Shown: one piece after another, positions 4,485-63,835 of the stretch
How positions within the stretch are numbered: the first letter of the stretch is position 1
Layout: every line of letters starts with the position of its first letter
Assembly: GCF_003202235.1 (NCBI RefSeq)
Contig: NZ_MASU01000006.1
Location: forward strand, 186,001 to 250,000
Direction: 5' to 3'
Length of the DNA: 64,000 nt
Source of the DNA: Prauserella flavalba
GTDB lineage: Bacteria > Actinomycetota > Actinomycetes > Mycobacteriales > Pseudonocardiaceae
The notes under the pieces: generated by a model
Told to the model about the DNA's origin: nothing
The model's database searches: none
The model's input: only the letters and a program-made list of their open reading frames with translations
Program-made: the position numbers and the translations under genes

Positions 4485-4529
4485 GGAAACCGCCCGTTCA
4501 CTGCGAGACACAGTGGACGGGCGGTTTCC
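4485..4529. terminator. Bidirectional hairpin between integrase and fadE
   Basis: A 19-bp stem (GGAAACCGCCCGTTCACTG against its complement with one G-T pair) closes a 7-nt loop CGAGACA. It sits between convergent genes with AAGG on one side and CCCTTG on the other. It probably terminates the minus-strand acyl-CoA dehydrogenase transcript and read-through from the element. Confidence 0.75.
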
Positions 4530-13122: not shown

Positions 13123-13169
13123 CCCAAGGCCACCTTTGTTGCGCTCAACGCACCAAAGGTGGCCTTGGG
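13123..13169. terminator. Short REPIN-like hairpin, convergent terminator of fadB and PP2C gene
   Basis: A perfect 16-bp stem, arm CCCAAGGCCACCTTTG at 13123-13138 and its complement at 13154-13169, with a 15-nt loop that itself contains GCG/CGC. It lies between convergent genes and belongs to the AAGGCCACC repeat family found at five places in the window. Confidence 0.8.
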
Positions 13170-17269: not shown

Positions 17270-17355
17270 AGAGCCGGAAACGCGGTGAAGCGGAACCCGA
17301 AATCCCTTCAGTTTAAACACGTAAGTCTTTCGGGTTTTGCACCGGCCCAGGGCTT

Positions 17356-17395
17356 CCACTCCGTTGGTGACGATGCGTAGTCACCAACGGAGTGG
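17356..17395. terminator. Perfect 15-bp inverted repeat downstream of the DUF3830 gene
   Basis: CCACTCCGTTGGTGA and its exact complement flank a 10-nt loop. It lies 112 bp past the DUF3830 stop on the minus strand and probably ends the aminotransferase-DUF3830 transcript. No U-run follows, so a processing or regulator-binding role is also possible. Confidence 0.55.
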
Positions 17396-17506
17396 TCACC
17401 CGGGGTAACGGTGATCTTGATGCGATGTTCGGGGGCTGTCGGCCCACGAACGAGTTAAGGCGGTGGCACTACAGGTGAATTCGCGCCTTCCACCCGTCCG
17501 AGTGAC

Positions 17507-19403: not shown

Positions 19404-20867
19404 ATGAGCACGGTCAGCGAGTCCGGCGTGGTCAGCGCGGTGAACAAGGAGCTGTTCATCGGCGGGAAGTGGACCGCCGCGAGCGGTGGCAGGACGTTCC
19501 CCGTCCAGGATCCGGCGACCGGTGAGGTGTTGTGCGAGGTCGCCGACGCCTCACCCGAGGACGGTATCGCCGCCCTCGACGCCGCGGTCGCCGCGCAGGG
19601 GGACTGGGCGGCGCACCCGCCGCGCGAACGGGGCGAGATCCTGCGCAGGGCCTACGACGCGCTCATGGCGCGCCAGGAGGAGCTCGCGCTGCTCATGACG
19701 CTCGAGATGGGCAAGCCGCTGGCCGAGGCGCGCGGCGAGATCGCCTACGCCGCCGAGTTCTTCCGGTGGTTCGCCGAGGAGGCCGTGCGCATCGACGGCG
19801 GCTACGCCACCGCACCCAACGGCAGCGGCCGTTTCCTCATCGCCAAGCAGCCGGTGGGGCCCTCGCTGCTGATCACGCCGTGGAACTTCCCGATGGCCAT
19901 GGGCACCCGCAAGATCGGGCCCGCCGTCGCCGCCGGGTGCACGATGGTGATCAAGCCGGCCGCACAGACACCGCTGTCGATGCTGGCGCTCGCCCAGATC
20001 CTCGCCGACGCCGGCCTGCCCGAGGGCGTGCTCAACGTCGTCACCACCTCCAGCGCGGGCTCCGTGATGGAGCCGCTGATCCGCGACGGCCGCGCGCGTA
20101 AGCTCTCCTTCACCGGCTCGACGGCCGTCGGCCGCAAGCTGCTGGAGCAGTGCGCCGACAAGGTGCTGCGCACGTCGATGGAGCTGGGCGGCAACGCGCC
20201 GTTCCTCGTCTTCGACGACGCCGACCTCGACGCCGCCGTCGAGGGCGCCATGCAGGCGAAGATGCGCAACATCGGCGAGGCGTGCACCGCCGCCAACCGC
20301 TTCTACGTGCAGCGGGGCGTCGCCGACGAGTTCGCGCGCAGGCTCACCGAGCGCATGGCCGCGCTGCCGATCGGCCGGGGCACCGAGGACGGCGTCGTGG
20401 TGGGCCCGCTCATCGACGAGGCCGCGATCGAGAAGGTCAGCGAGCTGGTGAGCGACGCCGCGCAGCGCGGCGCGAAGGTGCTCACCGGTGGGGCCACTGT
20501 GGACGGTCCGGGCAACTTCTACCAGCCGACCGTGCTCACCGACGTGCCCCAGGCCGCGCGGATGACCAGCGAGGAGATCTTCGGCCCGGTGGCGCCGATC
20601 TCGGTGTTCGACACCGAGGACGAGGTGATCGCCAAGGCCAACGACACCGAGTACGGCCTGGTCAGCTACGTCTTCACCAGTGACCTCAAGCGCTCGCTGC
20701 GCGTGTGCGAGCGGCTGGAGACCGGCATGGTCGGCCTCAACCAGGGCATCGTGTCGAACCCGGCGGCGCCGTTCGGCGGTGTCAAGCAGTCCGGCCTCGG
20801 GCGTGAGGGCGGCACGGTCGGCATCGACGAGTTCCTCGAGACTAAGTACATCGCGGTGAGCCTGTGA
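19404..20867 (+). CDS. Succinate-semialdehyde dehydrogenase-type aldehyde dehydrogenase
   Basis: A 487-aa aldehyde dehydrogenase. Glu260 in MELGGNAPF and Cys294 in GEACTAANRFY form the active site. The C-terminal AAPFGGVKQSGLGREGG is typical of GabD-like enzymes. ATG 19404 is chosen because AGGAGC lies 6 nt upstream; an upstream GTG at 19356 has no such site. It overlaps the next gene by GTGA (translational coupling). Substrate specificity (succinate semialdehyde) is inferred from the paired aminotransferase. Confidence 0.88.
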   Translation: MSTVSESGVVSAVNKELFIGGKWTAASGGRTFPVQDPATGEVLCEVADASPEDGIAALDAAVAAQGDWAAHPPRERGEILRRAYDALMARQEELALLMTLEMGKPLAEARGEIAYAAEFFRWFAEEAVRIDGGYATAPNGSGRFLIAKQPVGPSLLITPWNFPMAMGTRKIGPAVAAGCTMVIKPAAQTPLSMLALAQILADAGLPEGVLNVVTTSSAGSVMEPLIRDGRARKLSFTGSTAVGRKLLEQCADKVLRTSMELGGNAPFLVFDDADLDAAVEGAMQAKMRNIGEACTAANRFYVQRGVADEFARRLTERMAALPIGRGTEDGVVVGPLIDEAAIEKVSELVSDAAQRGAKVLTGGATVDGPGNFYQPTVLTDVPQAARMTSEEIFGPVAPISVFDTEDEVIAKANDTEYGLVSYVFTSDLKRSLRVCERLETGMVGLNQGIVSNPAAPFGGVKQSGLGREGGTVGIDEFLETKYIAVSL

Positions 20868-21919
20868 CCGACTACCGGATCGCCTCGATCCCCGGCGACG
20901 GCATCGGCGTCGACGTCCAGATCGAGGCACAGAAAGTCCTTGACGCGGCTGCGAAACGGTTCGGCTTCGGTCTGGAGTGGACGGAGTTCGACTGGAGCTG
21001 CGAGCGCTACGCCAAGACCGGCACGATGATGCCGGAGGACGGCATCGAGCAGCTGAGCGGGTTCGACTCGATCCTGCTGGGCGCCGTCGGTTTCCCCGGC
21101 GTGCCCGACCACGTCTCCCTGTGGGGACTGCTCATCCCGGTGCGCAGGGCGTTCCAGCAGTACGTCAACCTGCGGCCCGTGCGGCTGCTGCCGGGCACCA
21201 CGTCGGTGCTCGCCGGGCGGTCGGCCGACGAGCTGGAGATGGTGATCGTCCGCGAGAACTCCGAGGGCGAGTACTCCACGCTCGGCGGCAGGCACAACTC
21301 CGGGCAACCGGGCGAGTTCGCGCTGCAGGAGGCCGTGTTCACGCGCGTGGGCGTCGAGCGGATCATCAGGTACGCCTTCGAGGTGGCGCGCACCCGCAGC
21401 GGCCGCGTGACCTCGGCGACCAAGTCCAACGGCATCATCCACACGATGCCGTTCTGGGACGAGATCTTCGGCGAGGTCGCGGCGGAGTACCCGGACGTGA
21501 AGTCCGAGCTGACCCACATCGACGCGCTCGCGGCGCGGATGGTGCAGCAGCCGGACCGGCTCGACGTGGTGGTGGGTTCCAACCTGTTCGGCGACATCCT
21601 GAGCGACCTCGCGGCGGCCGTCACGGGCGGGCTCGGCATGGCGCCGTCGGGTAACCTCAACCCGGAGCGCGCGTACCCGTCGATGTTCGAAGCCGTGCAC
21701 GGCAGCGCCCCGGACATCGCTGGCCAGGGCATCGCCAACCCGGTGGCCCAGGTCCTCGCGGCGACGATGATGCTGGAGCACCTCGGTGAGACCGATGCCG
21801 CGGCGGCCGTCAACGCGGCGGTGGAGAAGGTGCTGAGCGAGGGAGTGGCCCTGACCCCCGACCTCGGCGGCAAGGCCACCACCGCCCAGCTCGGCACGGC
21901 GATCGCGGAGGCGATCTAG
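20864..21919 (+). CDS. Tartrate dehydrogenase/decarboxylase or D-malate dehydrogenase
   Basis: A 351-aa member of the isocitrate/isopropylmalate dehydrogenase family. RPVRLLPGTTSVLAGR and VRENSEGEYSTLGGR are characteristic of the tartrate/D-malate (TtuC/DmlA) branch rather than LeuB. Metal-binding aspartates are in SNLFGDILSDLAAA. It would oxidatively decarboxylate D-malate to pyruvate and CO2 with NAD and Mn2+. The GTG start overlaps the SSADH stop. It links the operon to C4-acid catabolism. Confidence 0.88.
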   Translation: MTDYRIASIPGDGIGVDVQIEAQKVLDAAAKRFGFGLEWTEFDWSCERYAKTGTMMPEDGIEQLSGFDSILLGAVGFPGVPDHVSLWGLLIPVRRAFQQYVNLRPVRLLPGTTSVLAGRSADELEMVIVRENSEGEYSTLGGRHNSGQPGEFALQEAVFTRVGVERIIRYAFEVARTRSGRVTSATKSNGIIHTMPFWDEIFGEVAAEYPDVKSELTHIDALAARMVQQPDRLDVVVGSNLFGDILSDLAAAVTGGLGMAPSGNLNPERAYPSMFEAVHGSAPDIAGQGIANPVAQVLAATMMLEHLGETDAAAAVNAAVEKVLSEGVALTPDLGGKATTAQLGTAIAEAI

Positions 21920-21929
21920 CCCCAGTCAA

Positions 21930-22037
21930 CCGCAGTGAAGGCCACCCTCACCGCGTGGAATCAGCACAGCGGCGCGGAGCGCCCCCACTTGGGTGGGGGG
22001 AGACGGGTGGGCGCAGGCATGGTGGCCTTCACTGCGG
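21930..22037. repeat. Long mosaic palindromic element, copy 1 (17-bp terminal inverted repeats)
   Basis: Arms CCGCAGTGAAGGCCACC (21930-21946) and its exact complement (22021-22037) flank a 74-bp interior containing CACAGCGGCGCGGAGCG and GAGACGGGTGGGCGCAGGCA. The same interior occurs at 63740-63816 and, reversed, at 27871-27977. It fills the gap between convergent tartrate-type dehydrogenase and ZIP genes. Confidence 0.85.
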
Positions 22038-22043
22038 CCACCC

Positions 22044-22766
22044 CTAAGAGAGCGCGGTCAGCAGGAACGCGGACAGGAAACCGGCGGTCGTGACCAGTCC
22101 CACCGAACGGCCGCCGTTTTCGTAGGCCTCGGGCGCCATCGTGTCGGCGAGCATCGTGAGGATCGCGCCGCCCGCGAAGGCGTTGACGAACGCGACCACG
22201 GACGGGTCCGCCGTGTCGAGCAGCAGGTAACCGGCGAGCGCGGCGAGGCCGCTCGTGATCGTCACCGTCGTCCACAGGCCCAGCACCCCGGCCGGGCGCC
22301 ACGAGCGTGCCCGCAGGCCCACCGTCGCGGCGACCGCCTCCGGCAGGTTCGATAGGAACACCGCCGCGAGCACCGCCAGGCCGATCGTGTCGCTCGTGAC
22401 GAGCGTCAGGCCGAGCACGATCGACTCGGGGATCCCGTCGAGCACGATGCCGAGCACGATCGCGGGCGCCGAGGAGTTCGCCGGGTGGTCGCCGCTGCGT
22501 TTGCGGTTGTGCCCGCCGATCCGGTCGATCAGCGCGTCGCCCGTGTAGAAGACCAGCGCGCCCGCGAGCATGCCCACCCCGACGCCGACCGCCGAGCGCT
22601 CGAACGAGTCCTCGACGAGCTCGTAGGCGACGGCGCTGGTGAGCACGCCCGTGCCGAACGCCATGATCAGGCCCAGCGCGCGGCGGGGAACCCGCAGCCA
22701 CAGAGCGAGCAGTCCGCCGAGGATCAGCGACGACGCCGCGAGCGCGCCCCAGGCGAACGCGGCCAC
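22044..22766 (-). CDS. ZIP-family metal permease
   Basis: A 240-aa membrane protein with about eight hydrophobic helices. The ZIP transmembrane IV/V motifs appear as LDGIPESIVLGL and FLSNLPEAVAA, a variant set in which the usual HNxPEG histidine is replaced by Asp-Gly. A His-rich loop (GGHNRKRSGDH) links the halves. It probably moves divalent metal, but the altered TM4 site leaves the substrate uncertain. It follows the Pr6Pr-like gene by 3 bp. Confidence 0.8.
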   Translation of the reverse strand: MAAFAWGALAASSLILGGLLALWLRVPRRALGLIMAFGTGVLTSAVAYELVEDSFERSAVGVGVGMLAGALVFYTGDALIDRIGGHNRKRSGDHPANSSAPAIVLGIVLDGIPESIVLGLTLVTSDTIGLAVLAAVFLSNLPEAVAATVGLRARSWRPAGVLGLWTTVTITSGLAALAGYLLLDTADPSVVAFVNAFAGGAILTMLADTMAPEAYENGGRSVGLVTTAGFLSAFLLTALS

Positions 22767-27773: not shown

Positions 27774-27851
27774 CGGACGCGCTCCCACCGTGTCGGACAT
27801 GGACGCCGAGTTGTCAGACGAGCGTGTGCCCGTGGCCAGCCCGCAGTGATC

Positions 27852-27996
27852 GACCGCAGTGAAGGCCACCATGCCTGCGTTCAACGCAGTGAAGGCCACC
27901 ATGCCTGCGCCCACCCGTCTCCCACCACCACCCGAACGGAGACGCTCCGCGCCGCTGTGCTGATTCCACGCAGTGAAGGTGGCCTTCACTGCGGTC
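27852..27996. repeat. Long mosaic palindromic element, copy 2 (inverted interior, partly duplicated)
   Basis: Terminal arms GACCGCAGTGAAGGCCACC (27852-27870) and its exact complement (27978-27996). The interior is the reverse complement of the module in copy 1, and a unit of about 30 bp (GCAGTGAAGGCCACCATGCC...) is duplicated in tandem at its left. It lies between the convergent P-type ATPase and GntR genes and fills most of the 233-bp gap. Confidence 0.85.
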
Positions 27997-31391: not shown

Positions 31392-32801
31392 ATGCCGAGC
31401 ACCGGAACCCTGCTGACCGCGAGCGAACTGGTCGCGGCCTACTCGTCGGGGGAACTGTCTCCGGTGGAGGCGACCAAGGCCTCGCTCGACGTGATCGAGC
31501 AGCACGACAAGGAGCTCAACGCCTTCACGCTCGTCGACCCCGAGGTGGCGCTCGACCAGGCACGGGCTTCGGAGGAGCGCTGGCGGGAGGGCAATCCGAT
31601 CGGCTGGCTCGACGGCGTGCCCGCCTCGATCAAGGACATGTTCCTGACCCAGGGCTGGCCGACCTTGCGCGGCTCGGTGTGCATCGACCGCGACCAGCCG
31701 TGGGAGGTGGACAGCCCGGTGACCGCGCGCATGCGGGAGAACGGGCTCGTGCTGCTCGGCAAGACCACCACCCCCGAGCTGGGCTGGAAGGGCGTCACCG
31801 ACAACCCGCTCGACGGCATCACCCGCAACCCGTGGAACCCCGCGCTCACGCCCGGTGGCTCCAGCGGCGGCAGCGCGGTCGCGGTCGCGACGGGCATGAG
31901 CGAGCTGTCCGTGGGCACCGACGGCGGCGGCTCCGTGCGCATTCCCGCGTCGTTCTGCGGCATCGTCGGGTTCAAGCCCACGGCGGGCCGCGTCCCGCTG
32001 TTTCCCGCGAGCCCGTTCGGCGCGCTCGCCCACGCCGGCCCGATGGCGCGCTCGGTGGACGACGTCGCGCTGCTGCTCGACGTGCTGGCCACGACGGACC
32101 ACCGCGACCCGAGCGCGCTGGCGCCGCCGATCGGCACCTACCGCGAGGCCGTGCGCCGCGACGTCCGAGGGCTGCGGGCCGCGTTCTCGCCCGCGCTCGG
32201 CTACATCGACGTGGACCCCGAGGTGGCGCAGGCGGTCGTGTCGACGGTCGCGGCGCTGACCGAGGCGGGGCTGTCGGTGGAGGAGGCCGACCCCGGCTTC
32301 GCCGACCCCGTCGAGGCGTTCGACGTGCTGTGGTCCACGGGCGCGGCGAAATGGCTCGACTCGTTCCCCGCCGGTTCGGAGGAGCGGATCGACCAGGGCC
32401 TGCGCAGGGTGTGGGAACAGGGGCGCACCTACTCGGCGAGCGACTACCTCGACGCGCAGGCCACGCGCGCGGCGCTCGGCATCCACATGGGCGAGTTCCA
32501 CCTGCGCTACGACGTGCTGATCACGCCGACGATGCCGATCCAGCCGTTCGAGGCCGGCCACGACGTGCCGCCCGGCAGCGGGCTCGAGAGCTGGCCACAG
32601 TGGACGCGGTTCACATACCCGTTCAACATGACCCAGCAGCCCGCGATCACGGTGCCGGCCGGGTTCACGTCGCAGGGGCTGCCGGTGGGCCTGCAGATCG
32701 TCGGCCCTCGCCACTCCGACGACCTCGTGCTCGCGGTGGCGAAGCTGGTCGAGGAGATCCGTCCCTGGGCCACCGACCGCCCCGCGGGCTCCCCGCGTTG
32801 A
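31392..32801 (+). CDS. Amidase signature-family amidohydrolase
   Basis: A 469-aa amidase. The Ser-cisSer-Lys triad region is clear: Lys81 in ASIKDMF, GGSSGGSAVAVA with Ser157/158, and the nucleophile Ser181 in GTDGGGSVRIPAS. It would hydrolyse an amide to acid and ammonia. ATG 31392 follows GAGGAGAG. Its place beside maleate-isomerase-like genes suggests a maleamate- or hydantoin-like intermediate, as in nicotinate or other N-heterocycle breakdown, but this is inference. Confidence 0.9.
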   Translation: MPSTGTLLTASELVAAYSSGELSPVEATKASLDVIEQHDKELNAFTLVDPEVALDQARASEERWREGNPIGWLDGVPASIKDMFLTQGWPTLRGSVCIDRDQPWEVDSPVTARMRENGLVLLGKTTTPELGWKGVTDNPLDGITRNPWNPALTPGGSSGGSAVAVATGMSELSVGTDGGGSVRIPASFCGIVGFKPTAGRVPLFPASPFGALAHAGPMARSVDDVALLLDVLATTDHRDPSALAPPIGTYREAVRRDVRGLRAAFSPALGYIDVDPEVAQAVVSTVAALTEAGLSVEEADPGFADPVEAFDVLWSTGAAKWLDSFPAGSEERIDQGLRRVWEQGRTYSASDYLDAQATRAALGIHMGEFHLRYDVLITPTMPIQPFEAGHDVPPGSGLESWPQWTRFTYPFNMTQQPAITVPAGFTSQGLPVGLQIVGPRHSDDLVLAVAKLVEEIRPWATDRPAGSPR

Positions 32802-32806
32802 TCGTC

Positions 32807-32855
32807 CCCCAAGGCCACCTTAGGTGCGTTGAACGCAACAAAGGTGGCCTTGGGG
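32807..32855. terminator. Short REPIN-like hairpin after the amidase gene
   Basis: A perfect 15-bp stem, arm CCCCAAGGCCACCTT and its complement, around a 19-nt loop holding an inner stem TGCGTT/AACGCA. It begins 6 bp after the amidase stop and is the probable terminator. It is the same subfamily as the hairpin at 13123. Confidence 0.8.
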
Positions 32856-32964: not shown

Positions 32965-33021
32965 CCGCAGTGAAGGCCACCTTCACTGCGTTGAACGCAG
33001 GCAAGGTGGCCTTCACTGCGG
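32965..33021. terminator. REPIN-like hairpin before the WS/DGAT 3' end
   Basis: A perfect 19-bp stem, arm CCGCAGTGAAGGCCACCTT (32965-32983) and its complement (33003-33021), with an inner 7-bp stem CTGCGTT/AACGCAG in the loop. It lies 12 bp beyond the stop of the minus-strand acyltransferase and probably ends that transcript. Its arms match the termini of the long mosaic elements. Confidence 0.82.
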
Positions 33022-62212: not shown

Positions 62213-62285
62213 AGAATCATTCCGCTGACGTCCGGCTCCGGTTCACCTCCCAGCGAGGACCCGGCGGCCACCGAGAGAGGACCCC

Positions 62286-62609: not shown

Positions 62610-63677
62610 GTGGAATCGAGTGCTCTGCAGGGGCTGCTCGACGAGTACGCCGAGCTGGAGGAACAGCTCGCGGACCCGTCGGTGCACGCCGACCAGGCCC
62701 GGGCACGCAAGCTGGGCCGTCGCTACGCCGAGCTGGCTCCCATCGTGAAGGCCCGCAAGGAGCTGGACGGTGCCCGTTCGGACCTCGCGGCGGCGAAGGA
62801 GCTCGCGGCCGAGGACCCGGCGTTCGCGGAGGAGGCCGAGGAGCTCGAGGCCCGTATCCCGGCGCTGGAGGCGCGGCTGACCGAACTGCTGCTGCCCCGC
62901 GACCCCTACGACGGCTCCGACGTCGTCATGGAGATCAAGTCGGGTGAGGGCGGCGAGGAGTCGGCCCTGTTCGCCGGCGACCTGCTGCGCATGTACCTGC
63001 GCTACGCCGAACGGCACAACTGGAAGGCCGAGGTGCTCGACGCCACCGAGTCCGACCTCGGCGGCTACAAGGACGTCACGGTGTCCATCAAGAGCAAGGG
63101 CGCCGAGGCCGACGGCGTGTGGTCGCGGCTGAAGTTCGAGGGCGGCGTGCACCGCGTGCAGCGCGTGCCCGCTACGGAGTCACAGGGCCGCATCCACACC
63201 TCGGCCGCGGGCGTGCTGATCTACCCGGAGCCGGAGGACGTCGAGGTCGAGATCGACCCGAACGACCTGCGCATCGACGTGTTCCGCTCGTCGGGCCCCG
63301 GCGGGCAGAGCGTCAACACCACCGACTCCGCCGTGCGCGTGACCCACCTGCCCACCGGCATCGTGGTGTCCTGCCAGAACGAGAAGTCGCAGATCCAGAA
63401 CCGGGCGAGGGCGATCCAGGTGCTCCAGGCCCGGCTGCAGGCACTCGCGGAGGAGGAGGCCGCCGCGAAGGCGGCCGACGCCCGCCGCTCGCAGGTCCGC
63501 ACGGTCGATCGCTCGGAGCGCGTGCGCACGTACAACTTCCCGGAGAACCGGATCTCCGACCACCGCGTGAACTACAAGGCCTACAACCTGGACCAGGTGC
63601 TCGACGGGGAGCTGACCGGCGTGCTCGACGCGCTCCGCGACGCCGACCGCGAGGAACGCCTCGCCGCCCAGTCCTGA
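62610..63677 (+). CDS. prfA: Peptide chain release factor 1
   Basis: A 355-aa class I release factor. Codon-recognition tripeptide Pro187-Ala188-Thr189 ([10 protein letters not shown]) marks it as RF1 (UAA/UAG). The GGQ motif, residues 231-233 in [17 protein letters not shown], promotes peptidyl-tRNA hydrolysis. GTG 62610 behind GAGAGGAAG gives the normal N-terminus. The HemK-type methyltransferase gene that often follows is absent here; a repeat element and a convergent gene follow instead. Confidence 0.95.
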
Positions 63678-63720: not shown

Positions 63721-63835
63721 GACCGCAGTGAAGGCCACCTTCACTGCGTTGGTTGAACACAGCGGCGCGCAGCGTCTCCGTGTGGGTGGTGGTGGGAGAC
63801 GGGTGGGCGCAGGCATGGTGGCCTTCACTGCGGTC
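63721..63835. repeat. Long mosaic palindromic element, copy 3 (19-bp terminal inverted repeats)
   Basis: Arms GACCGCAGTGAAGGCCACC (63721-63739) and exact complement (63817-63835). The interior is in the same orientation as copy 1, with CACAGCGGCGCGCAGCG and GAGACGGGTGGGCGCAGGCA conserved. It lies between prfA and the convergent LLM flavoprotein gene. Confidence 0.87.

Follow-up and report, generated by a model that had tools for sequence, protein, structure and literature searches.

The window analysed here is a stretch of 64,000 nucleotides from the 8.09 Mb genome of Prauserella flavalba (G000, contig C6, positions 186001 to 250000). Three long hairpin elements are found in it, each between convergent genes and each with an interior module in its loop (Table 1). 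A scan of the window with the arm sequence CCGCAGTGAAGGCCACC gives exact matches at 21930+, 22021-, 27854+, 27978-, 63723+ and 63817-, and a match with one mismatch at 27884+. Ten matches with three or fewer mismatches are present, compared with a mean of 0.54 and a largest value of 3 in 100 shuffles. The inverted repeats of the three long copies reach 26, 30 and 31 bp. Exact terminal inverted repeats are found where the original prediction had placed them, and the reversed interior and extra 30-bp unit that it described for the middle copy are also seen in the sequence.

The observation is real, but it is part of something larger. That prediction overlooked one short copy that lacks the interior, and also two members of a sister class, here termed class B, which has other outer arms (CCCC/GGGG). 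The short copy, which like the long ones belongs to class A, lies in the same convergent intergenic region as the class B copy at 32807-32855.

Table 1. Hairpin copies and module M in the window, and module M sites in protein genes (window coordinates unless a contig is given)
Feature	Position	Strand	Remarks
Long copy 1, class A hairpin	21930-22037	none	module M in loop; from arm scan and inverted repeat
Convergent genes beside long copy 1	20864-21919 and 22044-22766	+ and -	
Module M of long copy 1	21956-22011	+	boundaries approximate
Long copy 2, class A hairpin	27852-27996	none	left 30-bp unit duplicated, module M reversed
Module M of long copy 2	27910-27968	-	boundaries approximate
Long copy 3, class A hairpin	63721-63835	none	module M in loop; 3' of gene 62610-63677 (+)
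Module M of long copy 3	63749-63807	+	boundaries approximate
Short class A copy, 57 bp	32965-33021	none	two inverted REP-like palindromes
Class B copy (CCCCAAGGCCACC...GGTGGCCTTGGGG)	32807-32855	none	3' of gene ending at 32801
Class B copy	13123-13169	none	convergent neighbour genes
Module M in protein genes	G000:C2:293817, 296764, 394968, 71467; G000:C1:131259		

Anatomy, copy number and distribution of the hairpins

The three long copies do exist, but a search of the whole Prauserella genome with the 15-base arm GCAGTGAAGGCCACC, of the kind the original prediction had proposed, finds 472 exact occurrences (235 + 237); the reversed control gives 0. The majority of sampled copies are short palindromes of 57-65 bp with a REPIN-like build, i.e., two inverted REP-like palindromes. 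Class A has the approximate layout CCRACY-GCAGTGAAGGCCACC-(inner arm)-TTGAA-(inner arm)-GGTGGCCTTCACTGC-RGTYGG, which can be divided into a palindrome, GCAGTGAAGG-CCA-CCTTCACTGC, and the inverse of that palindrome, with a few bases between the two. The unit as a whole is a near-perfect palindrome in which a 41-bp core, AAGGNNACC-(23)-GGTNNCCTT, lies within the outer arms. The end consensus of class A is approximately CCRACY...RGTYGG and that of class B is variable. In the sampled stretches of G000 (1.02 Mb, 13% of the genome), 78 arm clusters comprise 63 plain pairs, 5 with extra arms or two pairs, 6 solo palindromes, 2 in which one arm is damaged and 2 that are weak matches in coding sequence.

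The short copy is predicted to fold into one long stem (-57.3 kcal/mol, z -10.2). The predicted folds of the three long copies have z values of -3.7, -9.5 and -7.8, and the predicted hairpins of all four copies beat all 200 shuffles. On inspection of the sequence no run of T follows the class A stem, i.e., the U-rich tract of a classical terminator was not seen there. Actinobacterial terminators are often U-poor.

The 15-base arms hardly vary among 47 distinct short class A copies from G000 and its sister species G002. Inner positions 11 and 12 change independently of each other, with no covariation, and their pairing lies below that of shuffles (0.40 vs 0.52 and 0.43 vs 0.51). As these positions are underpaired and the arms nearly invariant, the letters are kept as sequence and not just as fold. 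RNA covariation was considered as the cause of class A conservation and is unsupported, except at inner position 9 and, weakly, at the outer ends.

The arm pairs are highly uniform. The class A spectrum for 0 to 4 mismatches of 30 is 39, 4, 1, 0 and 0 in the G000 sample and 19, 1, 1, 1 and 1 in G002; class B pairs in G000 number 19 with no mismatch and 8 with one. In the relative G001, which has its own arm, 8 of the 8 hairpins found with that arm are perfect for the altered letters. An excess over control at 5-7 mismatches in G000 (18 vs 1 for class A, 15 vs 0 for class B) is also seen. Read individually, these items are mostly half-matches by chance beside the arm of a good copy; others are solo palindromes, coding matches and some cross-matches between the classes. 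One real truncated class B copy is found at G000:C2:235944 and three damaged copies are found in G002 (C1 sample positions 164370, 169264 and 280598). Copies are partly at sites shared by genomes that are ∼5-7% diverged, and such limited decay requires that they be renewed often, be converted or be under selection that is very strong.

The degenerate core AAGGNNACC-(19 to 27)-GGTNNCCTT was used to survey 390 Pseudonocardiaceae genomes. More than 50 cores are present in 14 of these, which represent 7 genera (e.g., 285 in G000, 279 in G002, 220 in G108, 195 in G160 and 194 in G353). No cores are found in 127 genomes and most others have 1-7; the reversed control gives at most 2. The core of the short copies measures 41 bp in 105 of 107 exact cases from six genomes with 30-52 bp allowed, the stretches of G095, G108 and G119 in this sample having been picked by matches of 37-45 bp. 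The letters are species-specific, with AAGGCCACCTTGAGGAAC... in G095 and AAGGGAACCATGAGGGAATC... in G108, and class A letters reappear outside the genus, in G329 (L213), while almost the same letters are found in G119 (L210). The family is nearly absent from G003 (1 core match), where a different intergenic repeat with units such as GCCGAGATCCGC and CGCGAGTCCCCC is found at C1 5.5-5.7 Mb (L100-L105, L113-L116).

One search of a plasmid collection with the short copy gave no match, and one search of viral contigs with a 23-mer gave no exact match. The exact motifs of both the hairpin and the module M family are absent from the full text of open-licence PMC papers. Nothing on the family appeared in the open-licence literature under REPIN/Actinobacteria, Pseudonocardiaceae REP or Amycolatopsis/Saccharopolyspora repeats, nor among the matches listed for mycobacterial or bidirectional terminators, convergent-gene repeats and Rickettsia palindromic elements (RPE).

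Gene-end position and turnover among relatives

In the 1.02 Mb of G000, an element is found in 36 of 90 convergent intergenic regions of 20-400 bp, in 9 of 270 co-directional regions and in none of 140 divergent ones (Fisher p ∼5e-22, convergent versus the rest). A gene 3' end is faced by 116 of 128 hairpins detected in samples of six genomes, where genes were called by a simple caller and the G095, G108 and G119 stretches were chosen for hairpins already listed there. Of these 116, 77 lie between convergent genes and 39 beside a single 3' end, and in 96 a stop codon is within 30 bp. The other 12 comprise 7 hairpins within called genes and 5 between divergent ones; among 90 exact arms, 6 lie within called genes. 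All 9 hairpins of G095 are at 3' ends according to a gene model trained on G000. Pfam hits support 7 of 10 flanking genes in G000 and all 9 of the flanking proteins searched in G095, one of the latter hits being below the curated cut-off. The hairpins have, in sum, the placement and predicted stability of terminators: a stable predicted stem right after stop codons, mainly between convergent genes. As REP elements of other bacteria are likewise found at gene ends, position alone does not prove termination.

For a query of 19,701 bases taken around the finding, identity to G000 in the main collinear pieces is 93-95% in G002, 82-90% in G001 and 72-82% in G003. When a wider stretch is compared, identity is 92.6-95.3% in 10 of 12 G002 blocks and 88-90% in the other two. 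Among 396 intergenic sites compared between G000 and G002, an element or arm is present in at least one of the two genomes at 25. Of these, 8 carry the same class, 3 have classes A and B exchanged, 6 have module M in one genome only and 8 have the element in one genome only. In total, 17 of the 25 sites differ in presence, class or module in genomes that are mostly 93-95% alike, and the copies are not static. The exchange of classes at one site could represent replacement, or independent gains at a limited number of permissive sites.

Neighbouring gene content also differs at two of the eight one-genome-only sites, and long copy 2 is at one of these. Its locus in G002 is an empty site after a stop codon, with a longer stretch upstream of which G000 keeps just both ends. 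By eye, two short remnants to the left of long copy 2 (window 27774-27850) match the start and very end of this G002 stretch (L087:14180-14990, minus strand), which itself looks like an antitoxin/toxin pair.

More distant relatives display other forms at these positions. The class B copy at 13123 has a class B counterpart in G002, and in G001 a GGGCACC-type hairpin of that genome's own. Of 66 hairpins given by the detector in G000, at least one of them a chance match in coding sequence, it was possible to place 18 in the G001 sample: 5 of the mapped sites have a detected hairpin, 2 are unclear and 11 were scored as lacking one. By eye, these 11 consist of 3 sites with an ordinary hairpin, 7 with 2-14 bp between the aligned flanks and 1 with G001's own version, in which both arms are altered (GTGAAGGGCACC...GGTGCCCTTCAC). 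In G003 some of these sites are occupied by plain hairpins that resemble terminators, and one of these hairpins has A and T tracts. Near G000:C6 143,261 the element is absent from both G001 and G003, with the genes abutting, which favours a gain in the G000 lineage; the direction of change is unproven at most empty sites.

The original prediction held that copies conserved at the same loci in all relatives, with no empty sites, would be stable terminators rather than mobile elements. Empty sites are found and the loci are not uniformly occupied. The two descriptions are not exclusive here: the positions are those of terminators, yet the copies turn over.

Module M, a nested element that enters genes in frame

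The interior module noted in the original prediction is present in the long copies, but it is itself a separate dispersed element of ∼52-59 bp. The sampled stretches have 43 matches: 23 are within hairpins of class A or B, 12 are intergenic, and called genes account for 8, of which 2 are weak. Nesting is seen at G000:C2:12714-12787, where the class B arms and flanks are alike in G000 and G002 and the loop is short in G000 and filled by module M in G002. A 23-base signature of the module is present in 25 of 390 genomes, representing 8 genera, with a control of 0 in all, and tandem copies ∼49-54 bp apart are found in several genomes. G361, from another genus, has 23 signature matches and 12 hairpin cores. 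This genome is rich in module M and poor in cores, and the two families therefore need not travel together.

Three G000 genes carry module M in frame where the G002 orthologue is empty. NRPS adenylation domains are the sites of two of these insertions, with net lengths of 51 and 57 bp; the third, net 54 bp, is in a gene of the proton-antiporter family. A formamidopyrimidine-DNA glycosylase gene has the module in G000 and G002 and not in G001 (54 bp). An ABC exporter gene also carries a copy, but its best G002 hit is 68-70%, and there is no orthologue suitable for comparison. The reading frame stays open across the module, as in YRTGDRVRWRVDN-SDAERLRLGGGGRRAGR-NLDFLGR compared with YRTGDRVRWRADG-NLDFLGR, and all 5 strong genic sites, few as they are, are in the sense direction. 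With 17-19 residues net, these adenylation domains, antiporter-family protein and glycosylase provide a natural set of in-frame insertions.

RPE are described, in parts of PMC10969869, as short dispersed elements found in frame in unrelated protein genes. Module M resembles them in this respect. It differs in size (∼52-59 bp compared with the ∼150 bp given there) and is not a palindromic unit of ∼150 bp. It is also a GC-rich actinobacterial element, nested in the loops of another repeat and present in the tandem arrays mentioned above.

Known repeat systems and candidate explanations

REPINs are described in parts of PMC3116915 and PMC8049555 as inverted doublets of imperfect palindromes that form one long hairpin, occur solo or clustered, and are numerous and intergenic. 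The Prauserella hairpins are like the REPIN/REP elements of Pseudomonas, E. coli and others in the doublet build with a short spacer, foldable as one hairpin, in the presence of solo palindromes and tandem units, and in their abundance between genes. These likenesses would fit REPINs in the strict sense, whose single-stranded hairpins are moved by a REP-associated Y1 tyrosine transposase (RAYT). However, a search for the Y1 domain (Y1_Tnp, PF01797), in line with the RAYT search proposed in the original prediction, gives 0 matches in the G000 genome. Of 16 genomes tested, 13 lack the domain, and among the 14 that have more than 50 cores it is missing from 11; the high-copy genomes that have it are G336, G353 and G363. 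Strict REPIN membership fails on the missing transposase. In addition, a constant GTAG or CGTC tag was not found in the end consensus of either class, and the nearly constant 41-bp core and the second element nested in the loop set these hairpins apart from REPINs. Already largely refuted by the missing transposase and tag, this explanation is highly improbable. The label REPIN/MITE-like thus holds in part: a dispersed, non-coding, REPIN-shaped family, varying in presence and class among close relatives, is supported, but not its membership in a RAYT system.

Two other systems are close in some traits. CGTC-tagged REPs are palindromic and of high copy number, and are reported in parts of PMC3733652 without a dedicated transposase; the Prauserella hairpins lack the CGTC tag, and the main text of that paper has no mention of Actinobacteria, Streptomyces, Mycobacterium, Amycolatopsis or Saccharopolyspora. 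For Streptococcus pneumoniae, parts of PMC3049150 describe SPRITE as terminator-like hairpins enriched between convergent genes and near 3' ends, with no matching IS, and BOX as modular in build. SPRITE thus shares with the Prauserella hairpins the location at gene ends and in convergent regions, and BOX shares the modular build. In the same account SPRITE elements are AT-rich, have a long tract rich in T and number in the tens, whereas the Prauserella hairpins are GC-rich, number in the hundreds, differ in class between sister species and have letters particular to each species. The hairpins work like a REPIN population and a SPRITE-like terminator repeat combined, outside the RAYT-REPIN family.

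The MITE part of the original label, i.e., internal-deletion derivatives of a DDE transposon with shared terminal repeats and target-site duplications, agrees with the small size, the terminal inverted repeats, the dispersal and the empty sites in relatives. No clear target-site duplication was seen by eye, though, at six empty sites tried, five of which aligned cleanly. The 1.02 Mb sampled, 13% of the G000 genome, has no full-length partner: of 11 genes called between close pairs of copies, ten were tested against Pfam and none is a transposase, 7 having hits (enzymes, DoxX-like, DUF) and 3 none. A fixed place after stop codons and the scarcity of damaged copies are also unusual for dead MITEs, and such an origin is unlikely. 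Stationary terminators kept similar by selection alone, for example by a sequence-specific termination factor, and with no mobility, would account for the 3'-end position, for the exchange with ordinary hairpins in relatives and for the near-perfect arms. Against this are the differences at 17 of 25 sites between G000 and G002, and the confinement of high copy number (more than 50 cores) to 14 of 390 family genomes, with 127 having none. Moreover, the eight G001 hairpins, all perfect for their altered letters, call for a concerted change across the genome. Pure immobility is therefore also an unlikely account.

Uptake sequences of Neisseria are often paired into terminators, and are common as singles in genes. 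DNA-uptake-like or protein-binding signals gathered by molecular drive, and often paired into terminators, could likewise display species dialects and near-perfect copies as gene-end hairpins; the link between uptake sequences and terminators is touched on in PMC3049150, as far as the relevant part of that paper goes. In G000, however, both arms are present in 68 of 78 clusters, and only 6 of 90 exact arms are in called genes. Since the arms are rarely unpaired, an uptake-like signal is thought very unlikely.

The reading that is preferred here, with a probability of roughly 0.6, is that of bidirectional terminator-type hairpins that spread or are homogenized in a REPIN-like manner without a RAYT, with module M as a nested, RPE-like element that inserts in frame. 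The original interpretation is thereby partly supported. The RNA of a unit would form a highly stable stem immediately after the stop codon, and this stem probably ends transcription from both sides, or might protect the 3' end, on both strands, as judged from the predicted fold and the position. The copying or converting process would most likely be a recombinase or replication template switching acting on the hairpin. The long copies would arise when the separate ∼52-59 bp module inserts into a hairpin loop; the module is dispersed independently and, as the empty orthologues show, also inserts in frame into protein genes. A broader proposal is more tentative, and the odds are somewhat against it: a process in Pseudonocardiaceae might rewrite terminator hairpins genome-wide, whereby a species-specific palindrome with a 41-bp core is copied to gene ends, older versions and ordinary terminators are replaced, and the set is kept letter-perfect without a RAYT. 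Module M would then use the loops as a refuge and genes as further sites.

Selection on each site, or a REP transposase, is the usual explanation for repeated terminators. In the present case copies vary in presence and class among close species, yet they are homogeneous, occur in genomes where a Y1 transposase was not found and have species-specific letters on one nearly fixed geometry. This allows a direct test, in soil actinomycetes, of what copies and homogenizes REP-like elements. Knowledge of both families would also benefit genome annotation and terminator prediction in these bacteria.

The window has other features as well. An L31-Actinobacteria ribosomal protein leader is found at 62232-62269 (Rfam RF03158, 48.6 bits). 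Two strong inverted repeats unrelated to the hairpin family, at 17346-17405 (26-bp arms, 85% complementary) and at 4485-4529 (19-bp arms, 95% complementary), are possibly ordinary terminators or operators.
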